From positions 1 to 34,699 of the forward strand of contig JAJZLM010000025.1 in assembly GCA_021850635.1 (NCBI GenBank): a DNA stretch of 34,699 nt, written 5' to 3'. The DNA is from Nanobdellota archaeon (GTDB lineage Archaea > Nanobdellota > Nanobdellia > Parvarchaeales > Parvarchaeaceae). The notes under the pieces were generated by a model. That model was not told the origin of the DNA. It saw only the letters and a program-made list of their open reading frames with translations, and searched no databases. Both the position numbers and the translations under genes were made by a program. Shown here piece by piece: positions 24,553-27,103 of the stretch. Positions within the stretch are counted from its first letter, which is position 1, and every line of letters starts with the position of its first letter.

Positions 24553-24580
24553 ATATAATTATGTACTTCTTAAGATAGGT

Positions 24581-25816
24581 ATGTCAGACAAAACTAATAA
24601 TGTTATAAATCGCGCTTATAAAGCTTTTGTCCCTTCAAAAGATGAATTAAAAAGATTGGACAGTGTCGCCTCTTATGCCGTGAGGCATATAAAGGATGCT
24701 GCACAGAGAGAAAAGGCTGCTATAAACGTAAACTTAGGTGGTTCGTACGCTAAAGGGACTAACATAGTCGACAAGAGCGACATAGACATATTCGTATCTT
24801 TTGATTCTGAAAAGAGCACAAAACTGCTTGGAAAACTTGTACCTAAAAATTTTATGGAGCAGAGGGGTACAAGGATTTACTACCGGGGAAAAATAAGGGG
24901 AATTCCTGTGGAGATAGTCCCAGTAGTAAGATTCCTGTCTGTGGATAAAGTGGAGAACTCTATAGACCTATCTGTCCTGCATACGGAATATGTTAGGAAG
25001 AGGCTTAATGAAGACCTAAGAAAAGACATAATAATATTGAAACAGTTCTGCAAGGCTAATGGATGCTACGGATCTGAAACGTTCAGACACGGCTTTTCTG
25101 GATATTCTCTGGAGCTGTTAGTACTGCACTATGGCGGGTTGAAGCCGTTGTTTAGCGCAGTCAGTGGATGGAGACCTCCCATCTTCATAGACCCTGGGCA
25201 ACAGTATAAAGACAAGAAGCGGGCGCTTGAGAATATTAATGTGGATGGCTCATTCCTTGTAGTCATAGACCCAACAAATCCAAGGAGAAACGTATGCGGC
25301 TCCCTGAACAAGGAAAACCTTGCTAAATTTGTCTTTTCTGTGAAGAAGTTCATAGCACATCCATCCATTGAACTATTCAAAGAAAAGGATGAAGAGAGGA
25401 TTGTTAGGATAACATCTAAAAAAAGACACACAAAACTGTTCGAATATTCTACTAAGATAGAAGAGCCGAGGGACAGGTTCCTCTCGATATACAACAAATC
25501 ATTAGCCAAACTTATAGATGAATTGAGAAAGAATGGCGTTGAAATCTACGATTCTACGCCTGTATATTACGATAAGGAGGTTAAACTACTGCTCGAGATA
25601 GCCAATACTCCTGTCACTAGTACAAGAAGGGTAGATGGACCCGAAGTATGGCTTGGAATGGACAGCTTCAAAGAATACCTGAAACAGCACAAAAATTCGT
25701 ATCCTCACGGAGAAAACGCTTCCTATGATAAGCCTTACGGGATAAAGGACTTCAAAAGATTTATACAGACTAAATTAAAAGAATATATAGATTCAAAAAC
25801 CATACTTAAAAACTGA
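24581..25816 (+). CDS. cca: Archaeal (class I) CCA-adding tRNA nucleotidyltransferase
   Basis: NLGGSYAKGTNIVDKSDIDIFVSF; GTRIYYRGKIRGIPVEIVPV; FCKANGCYGSETFRHGFSGYSLELLVLHYGG. Start reset to ATG 24581 (TATA-like CATATATAA about 27 nt upstream); ORF-track start 24467 lies inside the divergent helicase gene. Confidence 0.93.
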   Translation: MSDKTNNVINRAYKAFVPSKDELKRLDSVASYAVRHIKDAAQREKAAINVNLGGSYAKGTNIVDKSDIDIFVSFDSEKSTKLLGKLVPKNFMEQRGTRIYYRGKIRGIPVEIVPVVRFLSVDKVENSIDLSVLHTEYVRKRLNEDLRKDIIILKQFCKANGCYGSETFRHGFSGYSLELLVLHYGGLKPLFSAVSGWRPPIFIDPGQQYKDKKRALENINVDGSFLVVIDPTNPRRNVCGSLNKENLAKFVFSVKKFIAHPSIELFKEKDEERIVRITSKKRHTKLFEYSTKIEEPRDRFLSIYNKSLAKLIDELRKNGVEIYDSTPVYYDKEVKLLLEIANTPVTSTRRVDGPEVWLGMDSFKEYLKQHKNSYPHGENASYDKPYGIKDFKRFIQTKLKEYIDSKTILKN

Positions 25817-25817
25817 A

Positions 25818-25889
25818 GCCCGAATAGCTCAACGGCAGAGCATTTGGCTGTTAACCAAAGGGTTGCAGGTTCGAATCCTGCTTCGGGCG
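25818..25889 (+). tRNA. tRNA-Asn (GTT)
   Basis: 72-nt cloverleaf: GCCCGAA/TTCGGGC acceptor, anticodon loop CTGTTAA, T-arm GCAGG-TTCGAAT-CCTGC; CCA not encoded. Confidence 0.96.
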
Positions 25890-26013
25890 ATTTTAATTTA
25901 GTCTAGTTCTACTAACATCTAGAGCAAAACGCTTGCATCGACGATAAAGAACTGGAAAAGCTGTTTAGCGAAATGATGGTCAAAGACGATAAAATGGTTG
26001 ATACATCGACGCT

Positions 26014-27012
26014 TTGGAAAACAAAAAGGTGAATTTAAGTAAAAAGCTTTATAAAGATGTGAACAGTTTAATACAAATGAAGAACTCTAAAGATGACTAT
26101 AAACTTGAAGACGTACTTCTCGGTGCTTTATTAATCGCATCCAAATCAAAAAATGTTGAAATAAACTACAAAAAGATAGAAGAGCTCAGCTACAACTACA
26201 GCAAAGAAGATTTGCAGCTGCCAGCCTGGGATGCCCCTGTCTTTCCTGAAAAGTTAAACAATGAAACGATAGATTTCATATTGCTTGGAAACTCGATAAA
26301 TTTCGCCTTCAATGACTTTAAGACTGGCGAAAAGTACATCCATGAATATAAAGGGGTACCATTCAAAGGCGCTTATGGCATGTGGGCGGCATTGAAGGGC
26401 GCACTTGATGAAGGGCTCCCTATACTGGATGCAGATTACCTAGAAAACCTAAGCAGCCCAGAAACAAAGAAGATATTCGATGGGGTCAATAGGATCCCGA
26501 TGCTAAATGAGAGAGTCAGCATACTAAACGAAGTCGGCCGTGTTCTCAATAATAAATATGGAGGGCATTTCTACAATCTTGTAGAAAGGGCTGATGGGCA
26601 CCTATTCAATGAAGGAAAGGGCCTTGTAGAATTGCTTGTTGAGGATTTCCCCTCATTCCGCGACGATGCAATATACCACGGTAAGAGGATATCTTTTGCG
26701 AAAAGAGCACAGTTGGGTTCTGCCATGGTGTATGAGAAGTTTCTGACAGGCGGAAGCCGCCTGTTTGACGAAAAGGATGTAGAGCGCCTGACGGTCTTTG
26801 CCGATTACGAGCTCCCTAAGGCATTGAGGTCTATGGGAATATTTGAATACTACGCTCCCCTCGCTAATAGGATAGATGAGATTGTGAAAGAAATAAACGA
26901 CATCAAGGGATCAAACGCTGTAAATGCGCTGCACATAGACTATAGACTTTGGCTGGACGGCCGAAATTACAAGGACGCAAAAGCCCACATGGCTATAACT
27001 ACCGCCTATTAA
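26014..27012 (+). CDS. qng1: Queuosine salvage protein / queuosine 5'-phosphate N-glycosylase-like (DUF2419, Qng1-like)
   Basis: Near-full-length match from memory to eukaryotic Qng1 layout: NFAFNDF, MWAALKGALDEGLPILDADY, MLNERVSILNEVGRVLNNKYGGHFYNLV, LLVEDFPSFRDDAIYHGKRISFAKRAQL, LTVFADYELPKALRSMGI, VNALHIDYRLW. Start TTG 26014 uncertain. Confidence 0.87.
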   Translation: MENKKVNLSKKLYKDVNSLIQMKNSKDDYKLEDVLLGALLIASKSKNVEINYKKIEELSYNYSKEDLQLPAWDAPVFPEKLNNETIDFILLGNSINFAFNDFKTGEKYIHEYKGVPFKGAYGMWAALKGALDEGLPILDADYLENLSSPETKKIFDGVNRIPMLNERVSILNEVGRVLNNKYGGHFYNLVERADGHLFNEGKGLVELLVEDFPSFRDDAIYHGKRISFAKRAQLGSAMVYEKFLTGGSRLFDEKDVERLTVFADYELPKALRSMGIFEYYAPLANRIDEIVKEINDIKGSNAVNALHIDYRLWLDGRNYKDAKAHMAITTAY

Positions 27013-27103
27013 ATCGAGATTATTTTGCGAAAAGGATTTCATTAGGATATCTTTCGACGCATTAAACCTTCGCTTTTTACTATTTTACTAATGTTTTTCA
27101 TTC

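Follow-up and report, generated by a model that had tools for sequence, protein, structure and literature searches.

The closest described relatives of the gene analysed here are the Qng1 proteins of Sphaerobacter thermophilus (PDB 7u07, 7u91 and 7ulc) and human (QNG1/C9orf64, PDB 7ugk), and D298 and W302 have been named as active-site residues of Qng1 (PMC11592518). In DPANN archaea, the system most comparable is that of QueA, QueH and TGT, in which the synthesis genes are co-localised with TGT (PMC8204110, accessible part). Both concern 7-deazaguanine tRNA chemistry of the bacterial type within DPANN, but that system, as presented in the same part of the paper, concerns synthesis and not Qng1, and the genome studied here lacks a detectable TGT. 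The open-licence papers searched did not yield any account of Qng1 from DPANN archaea.

The window, that is, the whole stretch of 34,699 nucleotides analysed, is contig C10 of a MAG of 569 kb in 28 contigs (89.9% complete), related to a genome of the same genus, "Nanoarchaeota archaeon isolate LSA4.bin68" (G017). The features relevant to this work are the following.

24578–25816, + strand: gene of the CCA-adding enzyme (profile match, genus synteny).
25818–25889, + strand: tRNA-Asn(GTT), which stands next to the CCA-adding enzyme gene as part of the ancestral gene order of the genus (tRNA gene prediction, synteny).
25928–26032, + strand: short coding-like fragment (NACIDDKELEKLFSEMMVKDDKMVDTSTLWKTKR) between tRNA-Asn and the Qng1 gene, unmatched among the compared loci.
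26077–27012, + strand: Qng1/DUF2419 (PF10343) homologue, probably of 311 aa (profile match, PDB sequence matches, homologue alignment).
26077–26202, + strand: first 42 codons, with 67% nucleotide identity to the LSA4.bin68 gene and saturated dS; the mosaic boundary lies at about codon 43 (DNA alignment).
26203–27014, + strand: segment from codon 43 onward, about 97% identical to LSA4.bin68, deletion apart (DNA alignment).
26701–26703, + strand: Lys codon equivalent to K199 of Sphaerobacter Qng1 (K209 here), kept (alignment).
26803–26805, + strand: Asp codon equivalent to D231 (D243 here), kept (alignment).
26877–26878, + strand: point at which 72 bp have been deleted in frame (missing: NEKLIGAGSNEEVELRACTIAVAD); the microhomology here is about 3 bp, GAT (alignment with the LSA4.bin68 gene).
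26938–26952, + strand: Asp and Trp equivalent to the active-site D298 and W302, kept (alignment, PMC11592518).
27261–27337, − strand: tRNA-Gln(TTG) (tRNA gene prediction).

The order Lhr helicase, CCA-adding enzyme and tRNA-Asn is common to many members of the genus, so the contig is a true piece of this lineage's chromosome. The complex I genes and the small genome make Parvarchaeales a possible placement. Since the same order is found in members without Qng1 at this place, the adjacency of tRNA-Asn to the Qng1 gene is incidental, and genus synteny rules it out as a functional link. Both tRNA genes reported around the ORF in a preliminary description of this DNA are present, and its suspicion that the tRNA-Asn adjacency might be a coincidence proved right. 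The fragment at 25928–26032 is possibly a remnant of another gene. A perfect 14-bp inverted repeat surrounds tRNA-Asn (25767–25780 and 25891–25904; AGACTAAATTAAAA and TTTTAATTTAGTCT).

The ORF does encode a homologue of Qng1/DUF2419, as the preliminary description had proposed from conserved sequence blocks. The PF10343 (Q_salvage) profile search suggested there gave 175.7 bits (curated cut-off 25; E = 2e-51) for the ORF at 26014–27012, its PDB sequence relatives are Qng1/DUF2419 chains only (best 5.8e-35), and the predicted fold of the protein matches the PDB Qng1 structures, with top Foldseek matches that are all DUF2419 (TM about 0.8). The length of 332 aa given earlier corresponds to an ORF opened by TTG 26014, but this codon is probably too far upstream; the likelier start is ATG 26077, giving 311 aa, because homology to the gene of the same genus begins there.

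Compared with the Sphaerobacter and human proteins, the window protein belongs to the same Pfam family, has the same predicted fold and conserves K199, D231, D298 and W302. It differs in falling within a separate clade (support 98/96), in a longer "NDFKTGEKY" loop, in an insert, in the loss of 24 residues that include E267, E269 and R271, and in residing in a genome without TGT.

The phylogenetic tree of Qng1 is divided into two deep clades. Human QNG1 and Sphaerobacter Qng1 fall in clade A, along with many sequences from DPANN. Clade B comprises the window gene together with sequences from Micrarchaeota, Woesearchaeota, Pacearchaeota and Aenigmatarchaeota, Halogeometricum, and bacteria of the Acidobacteriota, Actinomycetota, Patescibacteria, Armatimonadota and Chloroflexota; within it, the window and LSA4.bin68 genes are placed with those of Micrarchaeota (92/96). 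Of 382 sampled genomes of the phylum, 39 (about 10%) carry PF10343, as do 10/296 genomes of the phylum to which the Micrarchaeota genome L072 belongs, which makes a Qng1 in an archaeon less exceptional than first thought. The broad ancestral archaeal clade that was named in advance as an argument against novelty exists in part, as a patchy clade B spread over DPANN phyla and some bacteria. Among DPANN carriers of Qng1, TGT occurs in 3/20 of those with clade B (17/20 lack it) versus 11/18 of those with clade A (Fisher p = 0.006), a contrast that is indicative only, as it is based on MAGs and counts kin genomes as independent. No widely common neighbour of the clade-B genes names a pathway.

The history of the window gene appears to be recent and lateral. 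From codon 43 onward, it shows 97% DNA identity to the LSA4.bin68 gene (L002/L070), with 21 nucleotide changes (NG86 dN 0.016, dS 0.066), whereas cdc48 is 71% identical between the two genomes. The similarity stops just past the stop codon, with unrelated DNA on either side: the LSA4.bin68 gene adjoins a GTP cyclohydrolase II-like gene. Both genomes lack TGT, and the LSA4.bin68 gene is distinguished from the window gene by its intact helix, its divergent first 42 codons and its other neighbours. These two genomes are the only ones among the sampled genus members with a clear Qng1. Lateral spread is well supported at the sequence level by the disparity between 97% and 71% identity and by the unrelated flanks, and the pattern is best explained if lineages recently exchanged the gene body, possibly onto an older homologue already in place. 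The case documents the lateral exchange of one salvage gene between DPANN archaea.

Lateral acquisition had been proposed earlier from codon usage and now stands on the near-identity to a gene of the same genus with different flanks. The Arg codons of the Qng1 gene are CGN in 5/13 cases, not 5 of 12 as counted before, in comparison with 8/47 in cdc48, 7/49 in smc, 12/54 in lhr and 6/12 in another neighbour, a range that makes codon usage weak evidence of acquisition. As for virus- or plasmid-borne mobility, no relative was confirmed in viral contigs, no phage match was obtained, and the plasmid homologues are distant (26–27%) and restricted to five large bacterial plasmid records. No tRNA-duplicating insertion repeats are evident around the gene.

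The window copy lacks exactly 72 bp relative to the LSA4.bin68 gene, in frame, and this loss of 24 residues at 26877/26878, overlooked in the preliminary description, is the reason why the PF10343 match ends at profile position 211 of 285. The deletion takes out a near-invariant E-x-E-[IL]-R motif (E267, E269 and R271 in Sphaerobacter numbering): E267 is found in 53/55 and R271 in 54/55 aligned homologue rows, the window row being among the exceptions. This helix is a widely conserved feature and not a curated family criterion, so its loss counts against activity and not against homology. The roles of the active-site residues are drawn from PDB titles, the publication cited above for D298 and W302 and general background on the family. 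When the intact homologue of the same genus is modelled with AlphaFold (pLDDT 95.1), residues 277–301 make up a single long helix, and the structure superimposes on 7u1o/7u07 at 2.0 Å with a TM of about 0.9 (Foldseek about 0.87–0.92). In the model of the window protein, a 9-residue stump of that helix is left, pLDDT falls to 37–83 over most of residues 241–311 (the C-terminal third) and the superposition is 3.9 Å. Judged from these models, which are indirect evidence of instability, the window copy has most likely lost part or all of its hydrolase activity; that it has lost its function is likelier than that it has gained a new one. Some constraint may nevertheless persist, because the ORF is uninterrupted, the deletion is in frame, K199, D231, D298 and W302 are kept and dN/dS is about 0.24 in the 97%-identical segment relative to the LSA4.bin68 gene. 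The point changes outside the deletion, considered as possible decay, fall at variable positions, with 5 window-derived changes versus 1 in the recent segment. A weak PF07958 (DUF1688) match (E = 0.011) was observed in residues 268–304 of the LSA4.bin68 protein, the segment deleted in the window copy.

TGT (PF01702) was not detected in the window genome, whereas 14/14 control genomes were positive, nor in any genome of its own family within the phylum sample, absences that rest on MAGs (its own about 90% complete); across the phylum sample, TGT occurs in 164 of the 382 genomes (43%). QueC was not found in the genome, and the matches elsewhere in the genus are weak, mostly short and partial, and likely to be other ATP-pyrophosphatase-like proteins. 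The precursor transporter YhhQ/QPTR was found in 0/38 relatives, this genome included. With none of the three found in the genome search proposed beforehand, the organism would have no known way to use released queuine in tRNA of its own, and the evidence does not support queuine salvage here. The TGT proteins of the phylum are mostly bacterial-like in length (about 370–430 aa), and their 164 genomes are far above the 12 DPANN genomes reported in PMC8204110.

Taken together, these sequences and models favour, with reasonable though far from complete confidence, an account in which the gene belongs, through lateral spread, to a second clade of Qng1-type hydrolases of 7-deazaguanine nucleotides that is for the most part independent of TGT and patchily distributed in DPANN archaea, the copy in the window being impaired or dead. 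Judging from structure and conservation, intact members would bind a queuosine-5′-monophosphate-like nucleotide in the helical DNA-glycosylase-like fold and cleave its N-glycosidic bond through the D231 pocket. In TGT-less symbionts, the benefit would most likely be nucleotide catabolism or detoxification, that is, the breakdown or neutralising of modified nucleotides that stem from RNA of the host or the environment, by which ribose-5-phosphate would be recovered and the base released, the cell's own tRNA not being modified. In the window genome, the copy would be the product of a recent exchange with a relative, or of acquisition from one, and would then have lost 24 residues of the conserved helix. 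That organisms unable to use queuine carry a queuine-releasing family suggests an uncharacterised role of Qng1, be it nutrient recovery, detoxification or a change of substrate.

A more tentative and rather doubtful proposal is that TGT-less DPANN keep this clade for a role outside their own tRNA (e.g. on host Q or archaeosine nucleotides), while a Micrarchaeota/Nanoarchaeota-type subgroup, including proteins with D231N and the helix-deleted window copy, is becoming one of non-hydrolytic nucleotide binders. Clade B provides a natural variant set, with and without D231 and with and without TGT. Asn occupies the D231 position in three Micrarchaeota-type proteins (L136, L137 and L138, from genomes G471, G473 and G601); L138 lies outside the L136/L137 group in the tree, and the change apparently arose more than once. 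L136 and L137 are 85% identical with a dN/dS of 0.12, indicating that at least this pair is maintained by purifying selection. It is unlikely, in our estimate, that the proteins of this subclade bind but do not hydrolyse a 7-deazaguanine nucleotide (perhaps one derived from archaeosine or Q), or that their chemistry is altered, the missing D231 or E267/R271 helix reflecting the change. The constraint on the G471/G473 pair, the lack of TGT in the genomes with natural D231N and the crystallisation of an engineered D231N Sphaerobacter Qng1 with bound Q-5′-MP (title of 7ulc) agree with it, but D231 is kept in close relatives of the same subclade (L072, L093, L133 and G017) and in the window copy, whose defect therefore differs from that of the D231N proteins.

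Quite improbable is an assembly or sequencing artefact, by which the organism would have an intact clade-B Qng1: the allele was seen once, in a single MAG, but the junction has only about 3 bp of microhomology, the frame is kept and 99% identity resumes right after the gap. Ordinary salvage, with queuine released from Q-5′-MP and inserted into G34 tRNAs by a TGT missed in the assembly, accords with the Qng1 homology, the four conserved active-site residues and the frequency of TGT in the phylum, but is very improbable given the lack of TGT in this genome and its family, the absence of YhhQ and the deleted helix.

Setting the favoured hydrolase account aside, some further observations were made on the relatives. 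An AsnC/Lrp-like regulator, by sequence appearance, lies near clade-A Qng1 in five DPANN genomes (L020, L023, L033, L035 and L132), and a putative secreted thermonuclease, also by appearance, lies beside clade-B Qng1 in divergent orientation in three TGT-containing genomes (L024, L026 and L032). One Micrarchaeota-type homologue has an in-frame TAG (L140/L142, G499). Finally, a very divergent PF10343 relative of about 336 aa (27–35 bits; L005, L006 and L007) occurs in three genomes of the same genus without a true Qng1 (G012, G016 and G024) and carries a Cys-rich tail (CCNRD.PHC.SHG.KCALPQRYV).
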